64,000 bases of DNA from Saprospiraceae bacterium (GTDB lineage Bacteria; Bacteroidota; Bacteroidia; Chitinophagales; Saprospiraceae): positions 124,001 through 188,000 of the forward strand of contig JADZFD010000032.1 of assembly GCA_020850225.1 (NCBI GenBank). Reading direction: 5' to 3'. The position numbers and the translations under genes are program-made. This document shows positions 15,681-64,000 of the stretch, one piece after another. The notes under the pieces are model-generated. The model ran no database searches, was not told where the DNA came from, and saw nothing but the letters and a program-made list of their open reading frames with translations. Every line of letters begins with the position of its first letter. Positions within the stretch are counted from its first letter, which is position 1.

Positions 15681-16694
15681 TTAGTTTACATTGCCCATTT
15701 TCAGAATATCGATTTTCAGTTCTATAGTTTTACCCGGATCTTCAATGATTTCAAGGGGTTCCTGTAGCAACCGGTATGAAGGTACATTATTGGGAAATTT
15801 GTTTAAAACTCCCAAAATGACTCTTTTCAGGATCGTCAAATCTGATGCGGATATGAAGTCGTCTCCATTAACATTTGCTGTGATAAGTTGAACCGGATTA
15901 GTAAAAATATCCAATCCGAGTATGTGACGCTGTATTTTGACTACATCGAGTACAGATATTTTTTCTGAAAATGCTTCATCGTGACTTTCCATAACTATTA
16001 CGGGGTTCTTCATTTGCGGATAATTATCTGAAGGATAATCGAAAGTATAAATACCCTGAACATTTTTCCTGATTTCCAATCTCGGAGAACCTGCACTTTG
16101 GGGCTTTAAAAAGAAGTTGATTTTCAAATCATAGGGATTACCTGTTACAGGATCTATAGCTGAAAATGTATATTTGGTTGAAATTTGTGATTTTTTGCTT
16201 CTTGCAATGGTGATAGCATTATCCAGATTGTTGAAAAAAACAGGATATTGCATGGTTTTATCCGGGGCAATGACTACAAATGATGGTGTGCCATACCAAG
16301 GGCCATACAACCCATCTTTAAATTCATAGGACAGTGACAGAGCGCCTCCGTCCACACTGATTCCTTTCATCGTCTGGTTATACGTTTGTTCGAAAGCGAG
16401 AACTTCCGGGTTAAAATCACCTGGTATAGTAGTGATACTGAAAAATTCGACGTCCTGATTACCTTCGCCATACTCTATGTATTTCTGTTGAAAATAAGGC
16501 GCATTGGCTATACATGGCGGACACGTAGTGAAGAAGAATTTTATTACAACTATCTTATTTTTATTTAAATAGTCATCGTAGAGCTTGTGCTGCTGGCCAG
16601 TCACATCTGTAACTGTAAAGTCATGCAATGTCTGTGTATATGTCTGGTAAGTACAGAACATACATATTGCAAAAATCAATATTTTAGTCTTCAT
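15681..16694 (-). CDS. secreted redoxin with C-terminal dockerin-like domain
   Basis: This 337-residue protein has a signal peptide (residues 1-20, ending around TYQTYTQT) and a thioredoxin/TlpA-like domain at about 22-165. The active-site motif is CPPC (C58-C61) in FFFTTCPPCIANAPYFQQKY. A linker of about 80 residues follows. Residues about 245-300 are dockerin-like: SVLDVVKIQRHILGLD, then a calcium-loop-like ANVNGDDFISASDL helix. The protein stops right after KMGNVN, which aligns with the KIGDVN motif behind the dockerins of the two giant proteins in this window. It has no cohesin-like part and no T9SS tail, so it is probably periplasmic or surface-tethered through a partner. The redox role is inferred from the CPPC motif. 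Confidence 0.82.
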   Translation of the reverse strand: MKTKILIFAICMFCTYQTYTQTLHDFTVTDVTGQQHKLYDDYLNKNKIVVIKFFFTTCPPCIANAPYFQQKYIEYGEGNQDVEFFSITTIPGDFNPEVLAFEQTYNQTMKGISVDGGALSLSYEFKDGLYGPWYGTPSFVVIAPDKTMQYPVFFNNLDNAITIARSKKSQISTKYTFSAIDPVTGNPYDLKINFFLKPQSAGSPRLEIRKNVQGIYTFDYPSDNYPQMKNPVIVMESHDEAFSEKISVLDVVKIQRHILGLDIFTNPVQLITANVNGDDFISASDLTILKRVILGVLNKFPNNVPSYRLLQEPLEIIEDPGKTIELKIDILKMGNVN

Positions 16695-37472: not shown

Positions 37473-40400
37473 ATGAATCTCAACACGTACCCGAATTTTA
37501 AAACAAAAATGGATTTATTTTTAAATAAATCATATGTGTTTTTAATGTCAGGATTCAAATCCGCAATTGATTTTAAATCAAAGGTATTTTGGCTACCTGT
37601 ATTATTCTCTGTTTTTGGGATTTACAATACAGCAATCGGTCAAACTCTTAGTACTAATAACTTTGGCCCTACTTCTTTTTGCCCTGGTGCAAGTGTTTCG
37701 GTTGGATGGACGGGAACAGGCACCTTTAATACAGGAAATGAATTCAGAGTTCAGATAAGTAATGCAAGCGGAGTATTTCCAATAGATAATTCATCCAATG
37801 TTATAGGATTTGTTGCATCAACTGCACTGACGGGTACGGTTACAGCCACAATACCAGGAAGTCAGACAACAGGTACAGGATACAGAATGCGCGTAGTCTC
37901 AACAGATCCGGCTTTGAATTTTACTTCACCTTATGATGATAATGGAAACAATCTCACTGTTTTACCTTCAGCTATATTACCTGTTTATCCATTTGTTGCT
38001 TCACCGGTACAACGTTATAATATTGGAGCAACATTGACAGTAACTGCTAACTTACAATGTGTCACTATGAATACTGGAAATATTTTTTCCATCGAAATGA
38101 GTGATGCCACTGGAAGTTTTACTGCTACTGGTTATCCAAAAATAATTGGTATGGTAGGGTCAACAGGTGCAACTAATATAACAGGTACAATCCCAAGTGT
38201 TCCCTATGGAACAGGTTACAGATTGCGTATCAGATCATCCAGTCCGGTTATGCTTTCCGATATAAGTGCGCCTTTTACAATCAATGGAGCAAATTTATAT
38301 ACATCTCAATGCGTATGTAATAACGATCAGACACCTAATAATAATGATGGAACATACTCTGTTACACTTTATATTGCTAATCAGGATGGAACACCACTAC
38401 CTCCCGGTCTCAACTACAGGGTTATTCCTGCATCATCTACTGGTTTGTTGAATACTTCCAATGGACCTATAGGTAATGCTTTGTTTTCGTATTGTGATGG
38501 ACTTGGATGTCCTTCAGGTATAAGTTCAGGTCAGTATTATCTAAGAGTACATGTTATATATGCCGGAACATACAGTGCAGGAGTAGATGATCCGGATTCT
38601 GATTTTGATCCGGATTTATTCCTGAGTTCTACAAATTGCGGGACTAGTACACTCTATCCTGCATTACCTGTTTTTCCTGCAAATTTACAAGCATTAAATT
38701 GTCTTCATACAGGTACCAATACTTTTGGGAACTCTTCCATGGGCGTATTTTCAGAAACAAATACTAATACTGCACCAACTTTACCTGATGGATTCTATCA
38801 GACTGTGTCAGGTATAACAGGTGGAGATCTTACTATAGAAAACGGTGAAGTAAATGAAGCTGATAATGATCCTGTATTTGAATTATATCTGATCAGACAG
38901 GCAACGAATGGTTGTAAAGTGTCTGCCTATAAAGAATTTAAAGTATTTAATGCTATATCTGCTGAACTTGTGGATTTGCCTATATTCTGTAGAAATCCGA
39001 GAACTAAAGATTCAATTAGTTTAGATATAATGCTTGGTCCGGATAACTCAGGAGGTGGTACTTTCTCTATTCCTGGTGTCACTATAGTCAATGGAAAAGT
39101 TGAAGTTGGTAGTGGTTTCTGCTATCCTGTCACCTATTCAGTTGTTGACAGTTGTGGAACTACCCTTACAGATACTAAATATCTGCAAGTGACAATAAAG
39201 CCGGATCCCAAATTTGATATTGATGCTGGTCAACCTGCATCTCCGCAATGTGCAACTTCAACTACATCTATCAATATTTCCCGAACGAGTACGGGACCCA
39301 ATCCAGTATTTACAGTTACCACTAATAATGCATTATATCCCGCTTCAATTACCGGTAGCAATACAAATGCAACAGTTCATTTCCCAGCTCTTCCTGCCAA
39401 TGTTAATGTAAAGTATAACATATGTTTGACAGAATCCAATAATACACCTTCAGGATGTGGGGCAATTGCTCCACATCCTGAACCATGTGAGAATACGATT
39501 TGTAAATCTTATACAATATATAATGATGGCCGTAATTGTGGATCAGACAATCTTTTTGCCTCCCAGTGTGGTGATGATAAAATTGATGTATGCGGTGTAG
39601 ACACGTCTCCAAGTTTGGATTTTGGTTGTAGCTTCTTTACCATCCAGGGTCCGGATGTACTGACATCTGAAGTAGAGTTTGATAACGGAGTAGTCGGATG
39701 TGCAGACGAAATGGTTACTGGTACATTTAATGTTTCATTGTTCGGAATTGATGCCAATCAGGTAGCCGGTGGACAAAAATTGAAGTCATTCCCTGGTATG
39801 AATGTTATATGTTCTATTTTTGGATTTAAAATTTTTGGATGGCGGCCTTTAGGTAAATTATATAATTTATTAGGTTGTGACAGAACAATTGCACAATTTA
39901 TTTTAGGTCTAATCAGTAACCTTGCCGGTGGAGACGGAGGTGGCTATATTGTGATGGCTGATACAGATGGCGATGGTGCTTTCGATTACTTGATAGATGA
40001 TGGTCCGTTTCCGTCAGGTAATCAGACTTTCTCCATACCCAACAGAACCAAAGCAAATGGCTATATTACTGTCAGAGCTGTAGGAGGATGGGTGAATTCC
40101 CCATCTGATGTATGTGGTGATATGGGAATCGAAGAAATAAATCTGCTGGATTTATTGCCTATTGGAGCTATTCCGATAGTAGGAGCAGTAATTGAAGATA
40201 TCTTGGCATCTGCTGGTTGCGGTGTCAATATTGCATTTTCAGTTGATGCAACAGAATCTGTCAAAATTCTGAATAATGAGCCTCCAATTTTTGTTAGTTG
40301 CAACCCAAGTGGCTATGTTTTTGCCCAAACTCTAGATTGTGAAATTCCTGTTAACTGGTCAATCCCTGGAGTTGTCGATGGTTGTAGTAAGGAAGCTTTG

Positions 40401-43400
40401 GTTTACAGAGGTTATGTAGAAAATCCAACGACTGATGCTTCATTGTATGCAGGTACAATGCTCCCACCATCTTTTACGAGTATTACTGAACCGGGTATCT
40501 ATCAGATTGCAGGGCCGTTACCCGGATCTGTATTGACACCTGGTGACTATACAATAACTTATCAGGCTGTATCTTGCAATGGTATACCTTCTTTATGTAC
40601 CTTTGTATCCCGGGTAACTTCCGGAAATCCAATTTTGGAATGTCCACAGGATTTGACAGTATCAGCTGATATCGATAAGTGTACAGCGGTTGTTAATGGA
40701 TTGGCACCTTATCAGGGATTGGGTTGCTCCAGTATTATCAATTACAGCTTTACCAATCCTGTTTCAGGTACTCTGGTACAAACCAATAGTACAATAATTG
40801 GTACACATAATATACCTGATGGTTATGCATTTGAATTAGGAATAACTTCGATTACTTATACCATGCAGGTAGATATAAACGGAGATGGTGATTATGCAGA
40901 TACGAATGAAACACAGAATTGTTCTTTCAGTATATCAGTCGAAGATAATCAGCTTCCACATGCCGTATGCATCGATGTTTCATTACATCTCAATAATGAA
41001 GGTAATGGAACGGTGTATGCCTCCGATCTTCAGGATTCCATCTATGTCGATGGTGGAAGCAATGACAATTGTACAGGAGCATTATTATTGGAAATTTCAA
41101 GAGACAGAGTTAATTATTCTTCTTCATTGAATTTTGACTGTGCTGATAAAGGTCAGCAGGTTATACTGTTAAGAGTAACAGATGCAAGTGGCAATGTCAA
41201 TTCATGTAAGGCAGTGGTCAATGTTTTGGATTATTTCGAAGGATATAAGTTAGACCTGGATGTACCTGAAGTTTGTTTTGAACCATTCCAGGATACCTTT
41301 GACTTTTCTCCATATATCGTAATTGCTCAACCGGGAGGTAAAAATATCAGACATCAGGATGTGGGTACCCTGGGTCCGCAAATTGAAGGTCAGTTTGGTA
41401 TTTCAGCCTTCTTGCCGGATGCCGGTTCTACCAATGATCCGGGTACCATTACAGAAGATGGTATTTATACTTTGGGTACTGGTACCGGATGGATAACCAT
41501 TTCTTATGTTTTATCTATAGAAGGTCAGGTCAATCAGATTAATGATACAACAGCACTTAAAGGCTGTTTCAGAATGGTACACGATGTATTCAGGGTAGAA
41601 AAACTGGATCCTGTTTGGAAGGGTGGATTTATGTGTTGTGATCAGCTTCCTGTATGGTTAGGTGGAGCGAATTGGGATGGCAATGGTGCTCCTCCCATTC
41701 CTGCTGGTATGCTGAGTCTTACAGATATCAGAGGTAGCTATCCGGGTGATGTATACGGAGAATGGATAGGTCAGGGTGTTTCATTTGTCGATCCGGACGG
41801 TATCAAATACACTGGAGATGAATTCTTCCAGTTTGATCCGAATGGATTGGATGGTACCTATTCTCTTACATATGCTATTGGGGACGAACCTTGTGAATTC
41901 AAATATACGCAGGAGATACTGGTGACATGTCAGGATTTACACATTTCTATCAGTGATTACACTGTTTGCCCTGCCAATTGGGTAGATGAAAAACAGGTGA
42001 TTGTTAATTTGGATGATAAGGATTTAGTGGTTTCTACAACTGGATTTGATGCGATTGGAGCAGATGGCGGACATTATGCCGATGGTACACCAGTGCATGA
42101 TCTGGATTCAGTAGTTGTCCATGACGGACGAGTAGTCATACCTGGATTTTTTGCTCCTGCTGTCAGAAGTAAGGATTACGAAATATGTGTGACCACATTC
42201 CAGGTAACGCCTTTTGGATGTGCTGACGTATTCTGCTACACCATAACAGTTGAAGATTTGCTGGCACCTGAATTCCAGAATTGTCCAAGAGATCCGATTG
42301 TGGTGGATGCACCTGCAGGATGGTGTTCGTCTTTCGTTAACTTTGAACTACCATGGGCATCGGATAATTGTATGGGATTGAATGCCAGAATAGAAAGAGG
42401 TGATTCTACCGGATTAAATTCAGGCGACTTGTTCCCTGTAGGTTTGACGATTTTGTCGTACCTGGCAACTGATACTGTGGGAAATCAAAGTTATTGTGAA
42501 TTAAAAATAATCGTTAATGATTATCATACACCACCTTCTATTGAATGTCCTAAGAATGTGACACAGGTCAATGACCCTGAAAAGTGTGGTGCTATTGTTC
42601 ATAATATAGCTCCAGCAAAAGTAGAGGATAATTGCCCTGATAATCTTACGATCATTTATGAAACAAAAGATCCGGATGGTAAAGTTATTGCCTGTGGTTT
42701 TGAAGATGCCAGCGGAGATTTCTTCCCAGTAGGTACTTCAAAAGTGAAATATAGGGTAGAAGATCAGCCGTTGATACTGATTACTGAGATTGTACAGGAT
42801 GGCGTTACGACAGGCATGGAGATTACCAATTTTGGTCCTGCAGCTATGGATATTACTTGTAGCAGCTTTATACTTAAAGACCAGAATGGCAATGTACTTG
42901 AAACATATATGGTGCCTACTGCCAATAATAAGTCCACATACGGTAGTACACCGATATATCCACCGGATCCAATCATGTGGGTTGTTCCAAATCCGAATGT
43001 AATACCTGTTGGAGAAACATTTACACATACATTCAATACTAATATTCCGGCAGGACAGATTGCCAAATACTGCTTTACCTTCCTGAAGAGAGTCATAGAT
43101 GAAGCAACAATCAATGATCTCGTCAAAGGCAATGTTATACTGAGAAAAGATGTCTGCGACCACGATGTACAGTCCGATTTCAGAGCAGCTACTCCATGTG
43201 ATCCGGGAAGTTTCGGTACCCTGAACCCTGGTTTACCAACCATGACACCGAATGGCACAACAAGAGGACTTCAGAATTATGCCCCTTCGGTTGATGAATG
43301 TTCATTTACAGTCACGGTAAATGATCTTGAAGCACCGTATTGTATCAAACATGATTCTATTACGGTTATCAATAATATAGTACCAACACAGATAGGAGCC

Positions 43401-46400
43401 CAGACATGTGTTATATCCAAAGTGAGCATGCCTGCAGGAATAGTTAATGACGTTAATATACATAATCTTAAGATTACCATTCCAAATGCAGGAGCTATAA
43501 CAGCATATCTTAGAAGTCCCGAAGGTACGCGAATTAAGTTGTTTGATGAAGTATGTCTTAATCAACCTAATGTCAACATTAATCTGGATGAAACCATCGT
43601 TTGGACACCGGCACCAAGTGTGGTGAATGCATTGTGTAATCCTATGGGTCAAGGTGGTACATACAGACCGGAAGAATCATTCAAGGCATTTTATGGTGAA
43701 CAGGGTGGAGGAGACTGGTCCCTTGAATTGTTTACAACCGGTAATGTAACAGGAGTCATCACAAACTGGGAATTGGAGATTCTTTACCAATTGCCATATG
43801 ACCAGGGAGATGTTGTGCTTCATAATGCACCTGGTCAATGTGATACAACTTTCTCCTGGATTCATCCGATACTTAAAGATAACTGTTGCTTTGGAACCAT
43901 TACCGTTGATTATACCTTCACGAATGATGTGACCGGTGAAACTTCAAAAGAAACAGTTGTTATTCTAAATTCCAATGGTACTACTAATCTTCAGGGACTT
44001 AGAGAAACCAGAATATTTAAGGTGGGTGTTACCAAAATTGAGTATACATTAACTGATATTCATGGAAATCTTAATACCTGTGGATTTACTGTTACTGTCC
44101 TGGATACAGAAAAGCCTGTATTTACCATCGGATGTCCTGACAGAGTTATTAATTTGGGTCCGGGTGAATGTACCGGAAGACTGGATTTCTATACACCTCC
44201 TGCTACGGATAATTGTGGTATAGAAAAAACTGAATATTTCTTTGAAGATGGTACAATTGCAGACATTAGTCAGTTACCTATTGGTTCTTATATAATTGAA
44301 ATGCATGTGACAGATATCTATGGTAATGTAGGCATTTGTTCATTCACGGTGACTGTCAATGAGTATATTCCAACAAGTACAACGCTGGCATGTAATAATG
44401 AAGTAAATATTTCATTAGGTCCGGATTGTCAGGCTGTATTGAATGCTGACATGATACTTGAAGGATTTGATTACAGATGTTATGACAATTATTGTATCAA
44501 GATTGAAGATCTTTTTGGAATACCTCACGACAACCTGTTTACTCTGGCCGATGAAGGAAAACGATTTAAAGTTAGTATCAGCGATTGTTTGTCAGGCAAC
44601 CTGAATTCCTGTTGGGGTTATGTGAATATAGAGGAAAAACTTACTCCTGTCCTGAAATGCCCTGAAGACCTGACGGTAGCATGTAATTTTGATATAGAAG
44701 CAGTTGATTCTCTCGGACATTTGCTGACTGGAGAAGCCATACTTGAATCATGTGAAGTAAATGCAAAAATCGCATATCAGGACGAATGGACAACATTTGG
44801 TAACTGTGACAACCCGAGAGCATTGGTAAAAAGAACATGGACAGTAATAGATGATGAAGGAAGAAAGGCTGAATGTGTTCAGAATTTTACAATACGACCA
44901 CTTGACCTCAATGATGTTGTGTATCCTAAAGATATAGAATTTAATCAGGCTATAACATGTGCTGATATTATTAACAATCCACAACTGAAACATCCTGATT
45001 ATACAGGATGGCCATTGCTAAATGGTCTTAAGGTAAATAAGGCAGGAAGTCTGTGTATGGTAAGTCTGAATTATTCTGATGATAATTATGATATTTGTGA
45101 AGGAAGCTATGTAATTTTAAGAACCTGGAGGATATTTAATATGTGCTATCCTGTATCAGCAGACAATCCACGTTCTCATGTTCAGGTGATTAAAATACTG
45201 GATGTTATGGGGCCGAAAATCATAGATTGCCCTGCAGATATGACTGTATCTGTTGATCCGTGGAGTTGTAGAATCAATATCGAATTACCTCAGCCCGGAC
45301 AAGTACTGGATGCTTGCTCACCTGGTATTCAGTTCAAACAACTGATTTACGGAGGCGGAGAAATTAAGTCTGTAAAGGATTCAGTTGGTATCGTCCATGT
45401 ATTTGCCAATGAATTGTATAAAGGTGTTCATACTATCAAATATGTGTATAAGGATAAATGTGGTAATGAGTCAGTATGTAGCTTCAGAGTAACGGTCGTA
45501 GACCAGACAGCACCAGTAGCAATAGCCAAACAAAATATCGTGATTGGTCTGTCCAATGACGGTACAGGAAACGGAATAGCCAAATTGTTTGCACATCAGG
45601 TGAATAACGGATCCTATGACCAGTGTACACAGGTAAGACTTGAAATCCGAAGGTTAGACGGAGGTATTTGCAGCAATACAGGAGCTGATGGCAAACACAA
45701 TAACAACAGCACCTACAACAATCACAATGGACTGACATCCGCAACTCCAGGTGTAAGCTGGTTGCATCCGGACGATAGCGTAAACGATACGGATGGTGGT
45801 GAGTTTGTTAAATTCTGTTGTGAGGATATACCAGCCGGTGAAGCATTCGGACTTCATGATGTGGAAATGCGTGTTTGGGATGACGGTAATATGAACGGAA
45901 TCATCGGTGACAATCAGATTGTAAATGGTCTGAAAGACAATTATAATACTACATGGGCAACAATAAGGGTTGAGAATAAGATACCGCCTGTAATCGTTTG
46001 TCCACCGGATGTAACAGTTACATGTGATATGGATATCGAATTGAGTATAGGTAAGGAAGTAGCAACAGACACAGTAGACCTGACGATGACAGGTTTACCA
46101 AACAGCATAGAGTTGTGTACTAATCTGTTGATTACCTATTCAGATCAGGGTAATCTGGATGCTTGTGGAAAAGGTGTTGTTACAAGAACATTTAAGGTAA
46201 AGAAAGGCAGTATTGAATCCAGTTGTACACAAAAGATAACAATCAACTATCTGGATGTGCCATTCACTGTGACATTTGCACAAAACAATGGAGTAACAGA
46301 TTGGGATAAGTGTAATTTTGGATTGGCAGATGCCAGAGACGCTAATAATCCTAAGATTAAAAAACCTGTAGTGAATTTCGGACAGTGTGATATTGTAGGA

Positions 46401-48632
46401 GAAACGGTCAAAATTGATACCTTCCTGTTTGAAGACGGAGCATGTAAGAAGTGGAAGGTGTCATATACATACAAAAGTTGGTGTTCAGGTGATGAGATCG
46501 GACCATTTGTACATTACTATGCATTTAAAGACGATATAGCACCGGTATTAACATGCAATGACCAGATGTTTGCTGCTGTTCCTAATCCAGCTAACCCACA
46601 GGGATACTGTGAAGGAAGTGTAGTGTTGGAATCAAGTGCAGGCGATGCACTTGTATGCGCAGAGGAGAGCTGGATTAAGTGGCAGATGTTTTTTGATGGA
46701 TGGGCAAATGGCACAACGGACAGATTGGGATCCAGTTTTGTTAATAAGGCATGGAAAGACAGATGGGAACGTGTTGACAAGACAATAAACGGAGTACCTA
46801 ATCCGGTATGGGCAGCCTTGCAGGCACAACACCAGGGAACGGTACTTGCCGATCCGGTGTATGTTACCTATGTCAAGCCAACAAAAGCAAGTGGAGAAGG
46901 AGTTAAAATGCCTGCATTCACCCTGCCATCAGAGAACATTCAACACAAGGTGTTATGGAAAGTTACCGATGGATGTGGCAATGTGGATCAGTGTCAGAGT
47001 ACAGTTATGGTAGTGGATAAGAAAGCACCTACACCGTATTGTGTACACCTGAGTACAGCGATTATGCAGACGACACCTAAGATGGTAGAGTTATGGGCAA
47101 AAGACTTTGACAAGGGATCATTTGACAATTGTTCACCTCAGACTAAGTTATATTTTACCTTTGATGAGGTTTCACCTTTATACAGCAAGCTTAACGAAGA
47201 GCATTACTTTAAGGCTGGTACAGGAGGAAGTGTAGTGGCGACTAAAGCAGAGTATGAATCCGGTAAAGCACAGAAATGGATACCTTCATTGAGAAGTTCC
47301 GGTAAGGTATGGACGACATGCGGTGATTTTACAGTTAAAATAAGCGTGTGGGATGAAGCATGGAATACAGATTTCTGCGAAGCAAACCTGAAAGTGATTG
47401 GATGCGGTGCCAACCTCATCGTATCTGGTCATGTAGCGACTGCCACCGGCAATAATGTAAAGGATGCAATGGTAATATTTGAAAGCAACCTTCCTGAATA
47501 TCCTAAGCAATTTGTTACAGATGTGAATGGAGATTACAGTATGGAAGTACAGGCAGATCTGGATTATACGGTGCACACCATTAAGAATGATGACTATATC
47601 AATGGAGTAAGTACCTTGGATATTGTATTGATTCAGCGCCATATTCTGGATCTGGAAGCATTTACGGATCCGTACAATCTGGTGGCAGCAGATGCCAATA
47701 ATGATAAATACGTTACTGCGTCTGACTTATCAGAAATACGTAAACTTATACTGGGAATAACGCAATCATTCAAAAATGATAGCTGGAGATTCCCTGTAAA
47801 ACATCAGACTATGAATATGCAGCAGATATTCCCTTATAAGGAACATTATAATTATGTTCAACTTGGAGAACATAAAGTGAAACAGGATTTTGTTGCTGTA
47901 AAAATTGGAGATGTAAATTCCAGTGCAAAACTGGACGTTAACAGTATCTCTACCGAGCCACGTACTGCTGCCATTTTAACGATGGAAACAGATGTACAGA
48001 ATTACAATAAAGGAGATATCGTAACTGTACCGTTTACTGCTGCAGAAGATCTGAACATCTCAGGATTCCAGTTGACATTGAATACGGGTAATCTTGAATT
48101 TGAAGAAATCCAATCAGGAGCCCTGAATATAGATGCAAGTCAGACGGGTGTATTTGCTAATCAGGACAAGATTACAATGAGTTATGCCGGTAAATCAACC
48201 GAAAAGATTAGCAAAGGTGAAGTGTTGTTTACAATCCGATTTAAAGCAAAGGATTACGGAAGTACTGAAGAAGCATTGTCATTCAATTCAGATATCACGA
48301 AAGCTGAAATGTATGATGCAGAATTGAAAGTAGGAAAAGTGGAACTGAGAATGAAGCACGCAGATGGAAATGCAATTCAGTTGTATCAGAATGAACCAAA
48401 CCCATTTATTGGTCAGACATCAATAAGTTATTATCTTCCTGAAGCATCTGAAGTATCCATGACTATCACTGATGTAACGGGTAAGGTAATTAAGCAGTAT
48501 GATATCACAGGAAATAAAGGAATGAATACAATCCAGGTATCCAGACGAGACCTGGGCGCATCCGGTATATTATTATATACTATGAAATGTGGTGAGTTTT
48601 CTGCGACAAGAAAAATGATTATCGTAGAATAA
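37473..48632 (+). CDS. giant HYR-repeat T9SS surface protein with dockerin-like and cohesin-like domains
   Basis: This is a 3719-residue secreted protein. A signal peptide ends near residue 57 (FSVFGIYNTAIG); Met1, Met13 and Met25 are all possible starts. Two tandem Ig-like repeats follow (about 58-170 and 172-275). From about 935 on come many HYR-type modules, each starting like PPVIVCPPDVTV or APVLTCNDQ. Between them lie a lamin-tail-like segment (about 1766-1870) and a proprotein-convertase P-domain-like segment (about 1970-2108). The C-terminal cassette holds a carboxypeptidase-regulatory-like domain (about 3310-3375), a dockerin-like domain (about 3377-3440, STLDIVLIQRHIL and ADANNDKYVTASDL) and KIGDVN. 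A cohesin-like domain (about 3500-3628) and a T9SS type A tail (about 3634-3719, NEPNPFIGQTSISYYLPE) complete it. An adhesive or scaffold role at the cell surface is inferred. Confidence 0.9.
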   Translation: MNLNTYPNFKTKMDLFLNKSYVFLMSGFKSAIDFKSKVFWLPVLFSVFGIYNTAIGQTLSTNNFGPTSFCPGASVSVGWTGTGTFNTGNEFRVQISNASGVFPIDNSSNVIGFVASTALTGTVTATIPGSQTTGTGYRMRVVSTDPALNFTSPYDDNGNNLTVLPSAILPVYPFVASPVQRYNIGATLTVTANLQCVTMNTGNIFSIEMSDATGSFTATGYPKIIGMVGSTGATNITGTIPSVPYGTGYRLRIRSSSPVMLSDISAPFTINGANLYTSQCVCNNDQTPNNNDGTYSVTLYIANQDGTPLPPGLNYRVIPASSTGLLNTSNGPIGNALFSYCDGLGCPSGISSGQYYLRVHVIYAGTYSAGVDDPDSDFDPDLFLSSTNCGTSTLYPALPVFPANLQALNCLHTGTNTFGNSSMGVFSETNTNTAPTLPDGFYQTVSGITGGDLTIENGEVNEADNDPVFELYLIRQATNGCKVSAYKEFKVFNAISAELVDLPIFCRNPRTKDSISLDIMLGPDNSGGGTFSIPGVTIVNGKVEVGSGFCYPVTYSVVDSCGTTLTDTKYLQVTIKPDPKFDIDAGQPASPQCATSTTSINISRTSTGPNPVFTVTTNNALYPASITGSNTNATVHFPALPANVNVKYNICLTESNNTPSGCGAIAPHPEPCENTICKSYTIYNDGRNCGSDNLFASQCGDDKIDVCGVDTSPSLDFGCSFFTIQGPDVLTSEVEFDNGVVGCADEMVTGTFNVSLFGIDANQVAGGQKLKSFPGMNVICSIFGFKIFGWRPLGKLYNLLGCDRTIAQFILGLISNLAGGDGGGYIVMADTDGDGAFDYLIDDGPFPSGNQTFSIPNRTKANGYITVRAVGGWVNSPSDVCGDMGIEEINLLDLLPIGAIPIVGAVIEDILASAGCGVNIAFSVDATESVKILNNEPPIFVSCNPSGYVFAQTLDCEIPVNWSIPGVVDGCSKEALVYRGYVENPTTDASLYAGTMLPPSFTSITEPGIYQIAGPLPGSVLTPGDYTITYQAVSCNGIPSLCTFVSRVTSGNPILECPQDLTVSADIDKCTAVVNGLAPYQGLGCSSIINYSFTNPVSGTLVQTNSTIIGTHNIPDGYAFELGITSITYTMQVDINGDGDYADTNETQNCSFSISVEDNQLPHAVCIDVSLHLNNEGNGTVYASDLQDSIYVDGGSNDNCTGALLLEISRDRVNYSSSLNFDCADKGQQVILLRVTDASGNVNSCKAVVNVLDYFEGYKLDLDVPEVCFEPFQDTFDFSPYIVIAQPGGKNIRHQDVGTLGPQIEGQFGISAFLPDAGSTNDPGTITEDGIYTLGTGTGWITISYVLSIEGQVNQINDTTALKGCFRMVHDVFRVEKLDPVWKGGFMCCDQLPVWLGGANWDGNGAPPIPAGMLSLTDIRGSYPGDVYGEWIGQGVSFVDPDGIKYTGDEFFQFDPNGLDGTYSLTYAIGDEPCEFKYTQEILVTCQDLHISISDYTVCPANWVDEKQVIVNLDDKDLVVSTTGFDAIGADGGHYADGTPVHDLDSVVVHDGRVVIPGFFAPAVRSKDYEICVTTFQVTPFGCADVFCYTITVEDLLAPEFQNCPRDPIVVDAPAGWCSSFVNFELPWASDNCMGLNARIERGDSTGLNSGDLFPVGLTILSYLATDTVGNQSYCELKIIVNDYHTPPSIECPKNVTQVNDPEKCGAIVHNIAPAKVEDNCPDNLTIIYETKDPDGKVIACGFEDASGDFFPVGTSKVKYRVEDQPLILITEIVQDGVTTGMEITNFGPAAMDITCSSFILKDQNGNVLETYMVPTANNKSTYGSTPIYPPDPIMWVVPNPNVIPVGETFTHTFNTNIPAGQIAKYCFTFLKRVIDEATINDLVKGNVILRKDVCDHDVQSDFRAATPCDPGSFGTLNPGLPTMTPNGTTRGLQNYAPSVDECSFTVTVNDLEAPYCIKHDSITVINNIVPTQIGAQTCVISKVSMPAGIVNDVNIHNLKITIPNAGAITAYLRSPEGTRIKLFDEVCLNQPNVNINLDETIVWTPAPSVVNALCNPMGQGGTYRPEESFKAFYGEQGGGDWSLELFTTGNVTGVITNWELEILYQLPYDQGDVVLHNAPGQCDTTFSWIHPILKDNCCFGTITVDYTFTNDVTGETSKETVVILNSNGTTNLQGLRETRIFKVGVTKIEYTLTDIHGNLNTCGFTVTVLDTEKPVFTIGCPDRVINLGPGECTGRLDFYTPPATDNCGIEKTEYFFEDGTIADISQLPIGSYIIEMHVTDIYGNVGICSFTVTVNEYIPTSTTLACNNEVNISLGPDCQAVLNADMILEGFDYRCYDNYCIKIEDLFGIPHDNLFTLADEGKRFKVSISDCLSGNLNSCWGYVNIEEKLTPVLKCPEDLTVACNFDIEAVDSLGHLLTGEAILESCEVNAKIAYQDEWTTFGNCDNPRALVKRTWTVIDDEGRKAECVQNFTIRPLDLNDVVYPKDIEFNQAITCADIINNPQLKHPDYTGWPLLNGLKVNKAGSLCMVSLNYSDDNYDICEGSYVILRTWRIFNMCYPVSADNPRSHVQVIKILDVMGPKIIDCPADMTVSVDPWSCRINIELPQPGQVLDACSPGIQFKQLIYGGGEIKSVKDSVGIVHVFANELYKGVHTIKYVYKDKCGNESVCSFRVTVVDQTAPVAIAKQNIVIGLSNDGTGNGIAKLFAHQVNNGSYDQCTQVRLEIRRLDGGICSNTGADGKHNNNSTYNNHNGLTSATPGVSWLHPDDSVNDTDGGEFVKFCCEDIPAGEAFGLHDVEMRVWDDGNMNGIIGDNQIVNGLKDNYNTTWATIRVENKIPPVIVCPPDVTVTCDMDIELSIGKEVATDTVDLTMTGLPNSIELCTNLLITYSDQGNLDACGKGVVTRTFKVKKGSIESSCTQKITINYLDVPFTVTFAQNNGVTDWDKCNFGLADARDANNPKIKKPVVNFGQCDIVGETVKIDTFLFEDGACKKWKVSYTYKSWCSGDEIGPFVHYYAFKDDIAPVLTCNDQMFAAVPNPANPQGYCEGSVVLESSAGDALVCAEESWIKWQMFFDGWANGTTDRLGSSFVNKAWKDRWERVDKTINGVPNPVWAALQAQHQGTVLADPVYVTYVKPTKASGEGVKMPAFTLPSENIQHKVLWKVTDGCGNVDQCQSTVMVVDKKAPTPYCVHLSTAIMQTTPKMVELWAKDFDKGSFDNCSPQTKLYFTFDEVSPLYSKLNEEHYFKAGTGGSVVATKAEYESGKAQKWIPSLRSSGKVWTTCGDFTVKISVWDEAWNTDFCEANLKVIGCGANLIVSGHVATATGNNVKDAMVIFESNLPEYPKQFVTDVNGDYSMEVQADLDYTVHTIKNDDYINGVSTLDIVLIQRHILDLEAFTDPYNLVAADANNDKYVTASDLSEIRKLILGITQSFKNDSWRFPVKHQTMNMQQIFPYKEHYNYVQLGEHKVKQDFVAVKIGDVNSSAKLDVNSISTEPRTAAILTMETDVQNYNKGDIVTVPFTAAEDLNISGFQLTLNTGNLEFEEIQSGALNIDASQTGVFANQDKITMSYAGKSTEKISKGEVLFTIRFKAKDYGSTEEALSFNSDITKAEMYDAELKVGKVELRMKHADGNAIQLYQNEPNPFIGQTSISYYLPEASEVSMTITDVTGKVIKQYDITGNKGMNTIQVSRRDLGASGILLYTMKCGEFSATRKMIIVE

Positions 48633-60122: not shown

Positions 60123-63100
60123 ATGAAACAAGTATTTTTTACATTATTATTGCTCACAGGCTTAGTTGTTTGGGTTGCACCCATTCAGCATAATAATGTA
60201 GTAGTGTTAAGTCCATTGAGTATACATGTTTTTGCCGGCAACGATCGTACAGATTGTTTGGGTCAAAGTCTGCTGATACAGGAACTTCAGGCAACAATCA
60301 ATGGTGATGTAAGCGATGGAGATTGGATCAGTTTTGGTGATGGCAGGTTTCAACCGGGTAATTTACTGACAGTAAGGTATAGTGTGGCACAGGCACAGCA
60401 AATCAGGTATGTTCCCGGAAGTAATGATATATCACTCGGTTTTTACAGACTAATGTTATTGTCTGATGCGCCCGTAGGTAATCCGCAGGAAAGAAAGACA
60501 GATGAAGTTAAAATCAGTTTCCAGACTGCACCTCCTTTATTTTGCTCAAATAATTTTACGATCGCACTGAATGAGTCATGTAGTCAGAAGGTGGATGTGA
60601 CCATGCTGCAATCCAATCCTGTTCCGCCTTACACCAATTATATCGTTGAGCTATACACAAAAGACGGTAAAATAATACCCGATAATATTTTGACCAAAGA
60701 TCATATTGGTAAAGAAATTTCTTATAAGTTGGGACATCAGTGTACATCCAATGTATGTTACGGGTCATTTTTTGTTAAAGATTTCTTTCCGCCTGTTTTT
60801 AAGTGTAGCAATGATACCGTATTCTGTAATGCATCTGTTGTACCTGAAAGCCTTGGGTTTCCTATACCGTCAGGTGCCTGGGTAGATACAATTATAAATA
60901 AAAAGTACTTAGTCAAAAATTGGGATAAATGTTCAGATGTAACTCTGGAATATACAGATCAGGAATTGAAACCTGATTGTTTCGGGCAGGCTGACAGGAT
61001 TATTACCCGTAAATGGAAGGCAAATGATGTCAGTGGTAATACATCTGAGTGTACAGAAATCATTTTTATCAAGAGAATGCCGCTGGATTCAGTGGTTTTT
61101 CCTGTTAATTTTGACGGCTTACAGGCACCCTTCTTCGAATGCGGTGATACTTTTCCAGTATTGACAAATGGTAATCCTTCACCTGATACTACAGGGATTC
61201 CGGGTATTGGATTTTGCGGACACCTTCAGTATCAGTACAGCGATATTGTTTTCGCAGAATGTGGCAACAGTTTTAAAATAGCCAGAAACTGGTTCGTTAT
61301 AGATTGGTGTACTTCATCCAGCAGAAGCATCAATCAATTGATTTATATCAAAGATACCAGAGCTCCTGAAATAGTAAGTCAGGATACCATTCATCTGGTA
61401 ACTGATCCATATTCATGTAATACTGCACAAATCGCTGTGCCTGACTTAATACTTGCGACAGATTGCTCTGAATTTACAACAACATATAAATTAAAGCGAT
61501 TATCAGGTGAAAATTACAACGACAAAATAGTGTTCGTTAATAATAAATATTATTTCAAATCACTTCCACAAGGTGTTTATAATTTGGAATATATCAGCCA
61601 GGATCTTTGTAATAATACATCAGTAGATACTAGTATAGTTATAGTTTCAGACAAAACAGCACCTTATACAGTTTGTAAGGAACATACTGCTGTGACCCTT
61701 GACAATACCGGAAACGGGCGTGTTTTTGCAGCATCTTTTGACAACGGTAGCTCTGATAATTGTGCAATCGATAATTTTAAGGTTAGAAGAATGCAAGCCG
61801 CTTGTGGAAGAAATGATGATTGGGCAGATTATGTAGATTTTTGCTGTGCTGATATCGGTACTACACAAATGGTAGTTTTTCAGGTGACGGACGCTTCAGG
61901 AAACCGTAATACCTGTATGGTGGAAGTGAATGTTGCAGATAAATTAAAACCGACGATTACATGTCCGCCAGATATCACGTTGGCTTGTTCGGATGATTAC
62001 GATCCGTCTGACATGAGTCGGTTTGGTACAGTTGTTACTACTGCGGCCGAACAAAAGAATATTATAATAAATAATTTTTATCACAAAGGTGTAGTAGGTA
62101 AAGATGGTCTGGCAAAGGATAATTGTAGTGTAGCTGTCAAATCCCGCACAAGCATGGATATAGCTTGTCATACAGGCTTTATTTACCGGACTTTTGTAGC
62201 TACAGATGCGAGTGGTAATTCAGATTCCTGTGTTCAGACGATTACGATTTTAAATCCGGATCCATTTGATGGCTCGGATATAACATGGCCGGATAATTAC
62301 AGCGGAAATGGTTGTAAATTGCTGGATGCAGACCCCAAAGTGACAGGTTATCCTGAATATAAAAATACAGCTTGTAGCAATGTAACGCACAGTTATACTG
62401 ATCAGCATTTCTATATGGCGGACAGTGCCTGTGTAAAAATATTCAGAACATGGTCAGTGATGGACTGGTGTCAGTTTGATCAATCGAATCCTAAGGAAGG
62501 AATATATTCTAAAATTCAGGTAATTAAATTGAGCAACAATCAAAGTCCTGAAATAATATCTTCATGTCAGGATACGGTATACTGCTCTTTTGTTCTGGAT
62601 TGCGGACTTACAAATATAATATTAAGTGCCTCGGCTTCCGATGATTGTACTGCCTCTGATTACTTGTCATGGACGTATGAACTTGATTTGAACAATGATA
62701 ATACTTACGATATTCAGGGAAATGCATCGCGTTTTGAAGTTGATATCCCGATGGGAAGCCATAGTGTCAGATGGACAGTTACTGATCAGTGTGGTAACTA
62801 TACACAATGTGTAAGGAGATTTTCAGTTGAGGACTGTAAAAAACCAACTCCTTACTGTATCAGTTACCTGACCAAATCATTGGATGCTGTAACCGGTGAA
62901 CTTGAAATTTCAGCCATAGATTTTGATAAAGGCAGTTCTGACAATTGTACTGTTTATGATGATTTAGTATTTACATTTGACAGAGCATTTCCCGTACATT
63001 CAAAACTGGATTCTATACATTATTTTAAAGGAGACGGATTTAATGCAAATTTGTCTGATTATCTGTCCGGACAAGCACAACGATGGGATCCTGTTAAAAA

Positions 63101-64000
63101 AAGTTCAACAAAATATTTTGATTGCAGTAATATTGATAATGGTATTTCGGATACAGTTTCTTTTCAAATGACTGTTTTTGATAAAAATGGTTACTCAGAT
63201 TTCTGCGAGGTTGTCCTGATTATGCAGGATAACAGTGATGTGTGCCCAGATGTCGTAACAAAGCATTCTGTCTCAGGAAGTGTCAAAACAGAAAATAATG
63301 AAGTTGTTGATGGCGTTGAAGTTAGCTACCATTCTTCAGAAAAAGAAGGATCGGCTATAGTGGATAAGGATGGTAGATACGTATTCCCTGATTTATTGAG
63401 AGGACGGCCTTATACCATAGGTGCTTCTTTGAACAGTGATCCTTTGGAAGGTGTAAATACGCTGGATATTGTTCTGATACAAAGACATATTCTGGGTTTG
63501 TCAACTTTGGATAGCCCGTACAAGCTCATTGCAGCAGATGTGGATAATAATAAATATGTATCTGCATCAGATCTTACCAAAATCAGAAAACTCATTCTGG
63601 GAGTTACTGATAAATTCAGTAAAGACGTTCCTTCATGGGTTTTTGTAGCAAAGGATGGTATCACCAATCCTAATACGCCACTTATTTATAAGTCTTTGTA
63701 TGACACCGATATTTTGCAAAACAACATGGATAACGTCGATTTTGTAGCAGTAAAGATTGGAGATGTTAATAATTCCGCACTGAATGAGTTTAAACCCAAT
63801 AATCAAACAGAGAATCGTATCAATACAGAAAGCTCTTATGTAATCAATTACACTGCTGTTAAAGAAATGAATCATATCAGGTGGGTATTTACTGCATCCG
63901 ATGCATTGGGTTTGGATGCTTTACAAGCTGGCCTTGATTTTTATAATGCAGGGGAGATATTGAGTTTTAATATTAATGATAATTTGAATATGGAGCATGA
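60123..64000 (+). CDS. second giant HYR-repeat protein with dockerin-like domain (3' end outside window)
   Basis: The frame is open from the ATG at 60123 to the right edge (1292 codons) without a stop. A signal peptide covers about residues 1-20 (FFTLLLLTGLVVWVAP). HYR-type modules follow, for example KPTITCPPDITLACSDDYD near 610 and the Cys-rich DNCAIDN and DDCTASD turns. A module starting KPTPYCISYL and containing IDFDKGSSDNC matches the module before the cassette in the 3719-residue protein. A carboxypeptidase-regulatory-like domain (about 1045-1095) is followed by the dockerin-like NTLDIVLIQRHILGL and AADVDNNKYVSASDL (about 1110-1175), then AVKIGDVNNS and the first strands of a cohesin-like domain. 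A T9SS tail is expected beyond the edge. It is probably a paralogue of the first giant protein. Confidence 0.88.
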   Translation, partial: MKQVFFTLLLLTGLVVWVAPIQHNNVVVLSPLSIHVFAGNDRTDCLGQSLLIQELQATINGDVSDGDWISFGDGRFQPGNLLTVRYSVAQAQQIRYVPGSNDISLGFYRLMLLSDAPVGNPQERKTDEVKISFQTAPPLFCSNNFTIALNESCSQKVDVTMLQSNPVPPYTNYIVELYTKDGKIIPDNILTKDHIGKEISYKLGHQCTSNVCYGSFFVKDFFPPVFKCSNDTVFCNASVVPESLGFPIPSGAWVDTIINKKYLVKNWDKCSDVTLEYTDQELKPDCFGQADRIITRKWKANDVSGNTSECTEIIFIKRMPLDSVVFPVNFDGLQAPFFECGDTFPVLTNGNPSPDTTGIPGIGFCGHLQYQYSDIVFAECGNSFKIARNWFVIDWCTSSSRSINQLIYIKDTRAPEIVSQDTIHLVTDPYSCNTAQIAVPDLILATDCSEFTTTYKLKRLSGENYNDKIVFVNNKYYFKSLPQGVYNLEYISQDLCNNTSVDTSIVIVSDKTAPYTVCKEHTAVTLDNTGNGRVFAASFDNGSSDNCAIDNFKVRRMQAACGRNDDWADYVDFCCADIGTTQMVVFQVTDASGNRNTCMVEVNVADKLKPTITCPPDITLACSDDYDPSDMSRFGTVVTTAAEQKNIIINNFYHKGVVGKDGLAKDNCSVAVKSRTSMDIACHTGFIYRTFVATDASGNSDSCVQTITILNPDPFDGSDITWPDNYSGNGCKLLDADPKVTGYPEYKNTACSNVTHSYTDQHFYMADSACVKIFRTWSVMDWCQFDQSNPKEGIYSKIQVIKLSNNQSPEIISSCQDTVYCSFVLDCGLTNIILSASASDDCTASDYLSWTYELDLNNDNTYDIQGNASRFEVDIPMGSHSVRWTVTDQCGNYTQCVRRFSVEDCKKPTPYCISYLTKSLDAVTGELEISAIDFDKGSSDNCTVYDDLVFTFDRAFPVHSKLDSIHYFKGDGFNANLSDYLSGQAQRWDPVKKSSTKYFDCSNIDNGISDTVSFQMTVFDKNGYSDFCEVVLIMQDNSDVCPDVVTKHSVSGSVKTENNEVVDGVEVSYHSSEKEGSAIVDKDGRYVFPDLLRGRPYTIGASLNSDPLEGVNTLDIVLIQRHILGLSTLDSPYKLIAADVDNNKYVSASDLTKIRKLILGVTDKFSKDVPSWVFVAKDGITNPNTPLIYKSLYDTDILQNNMDNVDFVAVKIGDVNNSALNEFKPNNQTENRINTESSYVINYTAVKEMNHIRWVFTASDALGLDALQAGLDFYNAGEILSFNINDNLNMEH

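Follow-up and report, generated by a model that had tools for sequence, protein, structure and literature searches.

A conserved redoxin that ends in a dockerin suggests enzyme docking onto a non-cellulosomal protein scaffold in Saprospiraceae

In the cellulosome of Acetivibrio cellulolyticus, the surface anchor ScaC carries three cohesins and receives the dockerin of ScaB (PMC4217186). A cellulosome-like system has also been proposed for Ca. Stygibacter (Cloacimonadota), in which a scaffoldin-like protein with tandem cohesins, CBM2/CBM3 and a conserved C-terminal surface-attachment domain is accompanied by enzymes that end in a dockerin, the clients being hydrolases and peptidases (PMC8542988). 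Non-cellulosomal cohesin/dockerin adhesins, for which a role in extracellular assembly is inferred, are described for ANME archaea and syntrophic sulfate reducers (PMC10553843). Here we describe a redoxin gene and two genes for very large HYR proteins (the giants) in a 64,000-nucleotide stretch of DNA from a Saprospiraceae bacterium (hereafter the window; contig C32:124001-188000 of a 3.25-Mb genome). Our literature search found nothing on dockerin redoxins or on this cohesin-dockerin system. As our best reading of the sequences, we propose that the redoxin is probably a dockerin-only client of a non-cellulosomal cohesin-dockerin assembly displayed by the type IX secretion system (T9SS).

Table 1. 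Features of the redoxin-dockerin and giant genes, in positions of the window
Feature	Position	Strand	Basis or remark
Redoxin-dockerin gene, tail-less, 337 aa	15681..16694	-	ORF, Pfam, orthologue L009
Probable type I signal peptide, residues 1-20, without lipobox	16635..16694	-	by eye
AhpC-TSA/redoxin domain, residues 22-150	16245..16631	-	Pfam, E 4.8e-9
CPPC active site, residues 58-61	16512..16523	-	sequence
Ig-like/CarboxypepD_reg-like linker domain, residues 172-238	15981..16181	-	limits by eye; aligned with giants' domain
Dockerin type I domain, residues 244-294	15813..15965	-	Pfam Dockerin_1
Post-dockerin stretch, residues 298-337, KMGNVN end	15684..15803	-	Gly334 conservation
HYR giant 1, 3719 aa: HYR, dockerin, KIGDVN, cohesin, T9SS type A tail	37473..48632	+	Pfam, NCBIfam
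Giant 1 dockerin, residues 3379-3427	47607..47753	+	Pfam
Giant 1 cohesin, residues 3507-3607	47991..48293	+	Pfam Cohesin
Giant 1 T9SS type A sorting tail, residues 3642-3717	48396..48623	+	TIGR04183, 31.5 bits, cut-off 23
HYR giant 2, continues beyond window	60123..63998	+	dockerin 63453-63596; cohesin-like domain and tail outside

The redoxin frame (Table 1) opens with ATG, and KMGNVN, its C-terminus, is directly followed by TAA. The marks of a TlpA/ResA-like redoxin are present, namely a thioredoxin-fold family (AhpC-TSA and Redoxin both above the Pfam cut-off), a CxxC motif and a cis-Pro (Pro137). A profile of its relatives has ResA (4nmu_A, 6.9e-11) as best redoxin match, and the protein itself does not reach the ResA family NF002854 (30.9 bits versus an NCBIfam cut-off of 170). 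The same genome encodes 13 further AhpC-TSA matches. Dockerin_1 (PF00404) scores just above its curated cut-off (23.7 versus 22.9 bits, E 5.5e-5), and phmmer with the redoxin matches the solved dockerins 4dh2_B (1.2e-5) and 4fl4_A (6e-5). Pfam detects CarboxypepD_reg in 17 of 86 tail-less relatives and has no match for it in the window redoxin, and neither Pfam nor NCBIfam finds a T9SS sorting tail, type A or B, in the latter. AlphaFold models had a mean pLDDT of 38.5 for the full redoxin with one relative in the alignment, and of 38.7 for the Ig-dockerin module with a shallow four-row alignment, values too low for the models to be used. Among solved structures, the redoxin-dockerin family profile matched PDB 8x39_A and 8x3a_A best, two chains named 'Serine protease', and did so in the dockerin part. 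We consider it fairly likely that the product is an exported, soluble thiol-disulfide oxidoreductase of the TlpA/ResA kind with a CPPC site, and that an Ig-like domain and a type I dockerin make up its C-terminal half.

An earlier note on this DNA had pointed to one dockerin-like sequence common to the redoxin (SVLDVVKIQRHILGL) and the two window giants (STLDIVLIQRHILDL and NTLDIVLIQRHILGL). Its quotations are correct, and the likeness is not due to chance, since a six-frame genome search with a profile of 14 giant C-termini returned 14 full copies, several cut copies and the redoxin at E 1e-23. The 14 large proteins have the C-terminal order CarboxypepD_reg-like domain, dockerin, SWRFVD..KIGDVN, cohesin-like domain and T9SS type A tail, of which the redoxin covers only the dockerin part (profile positions 68-167). 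As that note had read, the redoxin stops at KMGNVN, where the giants run past KIGDVN into the cohesin-like domain; a T9SS tail follows there. The genome-wide search yields the 14 giants with cohesin-like domain and T9SS tail, and the redoxin as the sole dockerin carrier of this kind in the genome to end its chain with a GDVN-like motif. Contigs C112, C82, C29, C93, C2 and C18 have cut copies of this C-terminal module at their ends or close to them, so that 14 is a minimum count of giants. Further dockerin carriers of the genome are a divergent protein of 775 aa (C12), an HYR protein with dockerin and tail and no cohesin (C29), and a protein with a different dockerin-like pair at its C-terminus (C101).

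Over the whole genome, Pfam matches number 19 for Dockerin_1 and 10 for Cohesin; scores are modest for both families here, and many of the cohesins are detected solely by the giants' own profile. One giants' profile matches both the ScaB dockerin (4uyq_B/4uyp_B, 6.9e-7) and the ScaC cohesin (4uyp_A, 8.8e-5), the two chains of a solved cohesin-dockerin complex (4uyp/4uyq), and this supports the view that the giants' dockerin and cohesin-like domains are real members of both families. The earlier reading of a cohesin-like domain in the giants is thereby supported; in giant 1 Pfam Cohesin matches it as well. No relatives of the giants' C-terminus were found on viral contigs. Among individual loci, an HYR protein has its T9SS tail directly after the dockerin, with no cohesin (L196 424-2745); a secreted-looking protein of 532 aa has a different dockerin-like EF-hand pair at its end and no T9SS tail by eye (L070 2287-3885); and a divergent dockerin HYR protein (L065 2081-5709) has behind it, on its own strand, a TlpA-type redoxin that looks like a lipoprotein (WCGPC).

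The combination of an enzyme with a docking module and nothing else, recognized from the window sequence alone, recurs well beyond it. A redoxin match (E<=1e-25) occurs in 142 of 398 genomes of the same family, i.e. a minority. We read 131 proteins over their whole length, namely six redoxin-only relatives and, among the matches listed, 125 in which the match includes a dockerin; family matches covering the redoxin part alone were left unextracted, save four in the outgroup. The 125 comprise 86 tail-less relatives, 34 longer ones, two with an extension of ~100 aa, two tail-less proteins with three redoxin domains, and one cut protein. The 86 tail-less relatives represent 85 different sequences, L009 and L077 being identical; L009, from a Chitinophagales MAG, is the nearest named relative and an orthologue that is 64% identical, stops at the same residue and has the same flanking genes. 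Both active-site Cys and Pro137 are invariant in all 86, and the two Cys are also kept in the remaining 45 rows and thus in all 131 proteins. Gly334 is invariant in the tail-less set, and after it each chain runs on for 3 (30 rows) to 10 residues. The giants' profiles detect the dockerin in 86 of 86 and neither cohesin nor tail in any, and Pfam gives Dockerin_1 in 78 (E<=0.01) and no Cohesin or T9SS tail; the NCBIfam T9SS tail is likewise absent from all 86. The three-redoxin proteins (L197 784-2844 and L198 1102-3165, from two genomes of one genus) combine CPPC, CSPC/CGPC and CPPC domains with a single dockerin, an arrangement that, by analogy, looks like that of disulfide isomerases.

By these comparisons, the redoxin-dockerin is a conserved dockerin-only architecture and not a broken giant, and the shared end point of its relatives from many genera suggests enzyme docking onto a protein scaffold other than a cellulosome. 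A truncated giant is ruled out by the conserved end in 86 rows together with the absence of any cohesin or tail trace (E<=0.05) downstream of the window redoxin or of the 86 scanned tail-less relatives, 84 of which have at least 300 nt downstream; the earlier observation that no decayed cohesin lies past the stop is thereby extended to the whole set. The gene could instead be a relic, derived from a giant or a tailed redoxin by loss of cohesin and tail and now with a decaying dockerin. This would fit with the dockerin changing faster than the redoxin, as it does in 9 of the 10 same-genus pairs compared (pN 0.20-0.45 versus 0.09-0.26); synonymous sites are saturated in these pairs, so that dN/dS by domain is unusable. 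However, all 86 rows keep a recognisable dockerin, Asp250 and Asp285 (loop position 12 of both repeats) are invariant in them, the tail-less form is basal (see below) and downstream traces are missing, and we regard a relic as very improbable and largely refuted.

Features of the dockerin itself bear on whether it may have a partner. The second calcium loop of the redoxin is near canonical (NVNGDDFISASD), and the first is degenerate in the window redoxin (SEKIS versus NGVS in the giants). Tail-less relatives keep H257 in 78 of 86 and L259 in 84 of 86, and are basic at position 256 in 69 and at position 291 in 78. A basic pair in this helix region is what we take to be the cohesin contact in type I dockerin complexes. 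It is possible, if on the unlikely side, that Ig-like domain, dockerin and KIGDVN form a self-contained, calcium-stabilised C-terminal module which has no cohesin partner, the chain ending where the folded unit ends. In favour of this, the chain end is tied to the invariant Gly and not to the dockerin, conservation of the last stretch equals that of the dockerin (mean frequency of the commonest residue 0.51 in each, tail-less relatives), and a cis arrangement is conceivable as the giants have dockerin and cohesin in one chain. However, the presumed cohesin-facing positions stay basic, and tandem-cohesin proteins adjoining dockerin giants, described below, suggest a working pair system; we continue to prefer the dockerin-only client.

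The cohesin profile matches 28 of the 34 longer relatives, all labelled dockerin-cohesin-tail; 23 of the 28 also match the tail profile and five do not, and the remaining six of the 34 match neither. In the 45-row alignment that includes the six redoxin-only rows, Pfam gives 35 rows with a tail and only five with a cohesin. In a tree of the redoxin domain alone (131 rows, quick method; L045 and L147 labelled by eye as 'cohesin, no tail', with no cohesin match at E<=0.01), the redoxin-only relatives split off on a starred branch, the tail-less redoxin-dockerins are basal and the longer forms are nested in several places, with L169, L176 and L127 as unsure long branches. The tail-less label changes state 9 times and the long label 8 times, of which starred branches force only 1 and 2, respectively. 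Because the long forms are nested in tail-less ones, cohesin and tail have probably been added (or lost) more than once, and the tail-less form is likely the older one within the dockerin clade.

The tail-less redoxin would be periplasmic by default, because it has neither T9SS tail nor lipobox; a home-made rule applied to the N-termini of the 86 tail-less relatives gave five lipobox-like strings, all read inside hydrophobic cores, and no weak N-terminus. SprA is present in the genome. It may nevertheless act at an exported site that it reaches by docking, since redoxin-only relatives and nested long forms have T9SS tails. Specifically, one might imagine that the tail-less redoxin is carried out of the cell by a T9SS cargo to whose cohesin it is bound. 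The profile finds a tail in five of the six redoxin relatives outside the dockerin clade, as in the 23 nested long forms counted above, so that an exported site may be ancestral, with the tail-less forms in between. However, a periplasmic enzyme would need no such route, and we know of no T9SS example of it; we hold this kind of export to be distinctly improbable.

If the redoxin is a client, what does it dock on? The earlier note had suggested that the giants could be the scaffolds, which is partly right. They have a cohesin-like domain, yet they look more like adaptors, because a single dockerin and a single cohesin-like domain share the chain in each of the 14; as proteins with tandem cohesins exist elsewhere in the genome, we set the giants aside as scaffold. 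A better scaffold candidate, judged by domain composition, is a protein of 1078 aa on contig C7 (L073 6100-9333), with three tandem cohesins (2.7e-10, 3.5e-5 and 2.0e-8 by the giants' cohesin profile; Pfam Cohesin 52.5 bits), SprB repeats and a T9SS type B tail. About 13 kb away on the same contig, L074 (5964-9689) combines SprB repeats and a type B domain with a single cohesin, again found with the giants' cohesin profile, and we treat both as candidate anchoring scaffolds. The L073 cohesin block is matched in 97 of 120 family genomes (E<=1e-10). We inspected 15 scaffold loci (L073, L184-L191 and L199-L204; several cut by contig ends), with 2-10 cohesins each by profile, and in five of them (L185, L186, L200, L201 and L202) a dockerin giant is the adjacent gene on the same strand. 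At a chance of 1-3% per locus, estimated from ~14 giants per 2,900 genes, this has a probability of 3e-7 to 6e-5. At L190 the adjacent gene carries a cohesin and a tail, and the scaffold of the genome studied here has no adjoining dockerin gene. The flanks of the 131 redoxin loci have no recurrent cohesin or dockerin neighbour; their neighbours are kept in few close genomes only, this genome included (a Zn-phospholipase-like gene in 5 of 131, a UlaG-like gene in 8).

Co-occurrence across genomes was compared with kinship and genome size ignored in every test that follows. Pfam cohesin matches occur in 112 of 120 sampled family genomes, which are assumed to lie within the 398, and the redoxin-dockerin is found in 39 of these 112 versus none of the eight without (p=0.052), four genomes in which the redoxin matched and the dockerin part was unseen (G275, G290, G321 and G323) being counted here as lacking it. 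With these four left out, a scaffold match is present in 38 of 39 redoxin-dockerin genomes versus 56 of 77 others (p=0.0009), and HYR_4C matches have a median of 29 versus 9 (p=0.0025; counts of 43 per genome mean at least 43). HYR_4C is also higher for the 30 genomes with a tail-less redoxin (p=0.004). Some open frames are packed with HYR_4C, the examples seen being of 8775 aa (G284:C92), 6917 aa (G331:C65) and 3742 aa (G256:C51).

The giants were also described at the outset as Cys-rich, and this is so: 13 of the 14 have 2.3-3.5% Cys and the fourteenth (C27b) 1.7%, versus 0.67% over 27 other window genes, the value for giant 2 coming from its C-terminal 821 aa only. The high Cys content, the invariant CxxC and the three-redoxin forms would suit a disulfide enzyme for the giants. 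We propose that the redoxin dockerin would bind, with calcium, the cohesin of one of these T9SS-exported proteins in trans, making the redoxin a client enzyme in a three-tier assembly that is like a cellulosome without being one, namely dockerin-only client, dockerin-cohesin adaptor and multi-cohesin anchor. Against this reading stand the faster change of the dockerin, the degenerate first calcium loop, the presence of a redoxin match in only a minority of family genomes, redoxin flanks with no recurrent cohesin or dockerin neighbour, and the borderline association with Pfam cohesins. The task of the redoxin, on which we place less weight, might be to form, proofread or repair disulfides in the Cys-rich HYR giants, either during their transit through the periplasm or at the surface. 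The full picture, a three-tier T9SS surface assembly built around Cys-rich HYR giants and not around a polysaccharide, in which the CPPC redoxin, in one genus with three redoxin domains, rides as disulfide enzyme and possibly crosses the outer membrane without an export signal of its own, seems to us unlikely as a whole. If the dockerin binds, the system would make it possible to test whether docking delivers an enzyme to a scaffold displayed by T9SS, and the redoxin would be a candidate for the enzyme that acts on disulfides of giant, Cys-rich proteins of the surface.

How this system compares with known ones can be stated at the level of domains. The redoxin resembles ResA/TlpA oxidoreductases in fold family and CxxC, and differs in its CPPC site, in having no membrane tether that we could see, and in its Ig-like and dockerin domains. 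It shares with the ANME and sulfate reducer proteins a non-cellulosomal cohesin-dockerin setting; those proteins are adhesins, and the passages considered make no mention of a dockerin-bearing redox enzyme. Two hallmarks of a cellulosome are found here, a multi-cohesin scaffoldin (L073) and a dockerin-bearing enzyme (one, the redoxin). The 25 Pfam families listed for the 17 other dockerin proteins of the genome include no clear enzyme family and no glycoside hydrolase or CBM, and the latter two are also absent from L073 and L074. In the Acetivibrio cellulolyticus cellulosome, with ScaA as enzyme scaffoldin, ScaB as adaptor and ScaC as anchor, the likeness is that L073, too, combines three cohesins with an end for sorting to the surface and that the giants' dockerin and cohesin profiles match those of ScaB and ScaC, respectively. 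However, the anchor here has a T9SS type B tail and not SLH, and the sole tail-less client of this dockerin kind that we see is a redoxin. With the system proposed for Ca. Stygibacter, there are in common a candidate surface scaffold of tandem cohesins and an enzyme that ends in a dockerin, whereas the client here would be a thiol oxidoreductase and the adaptors HYR giants.
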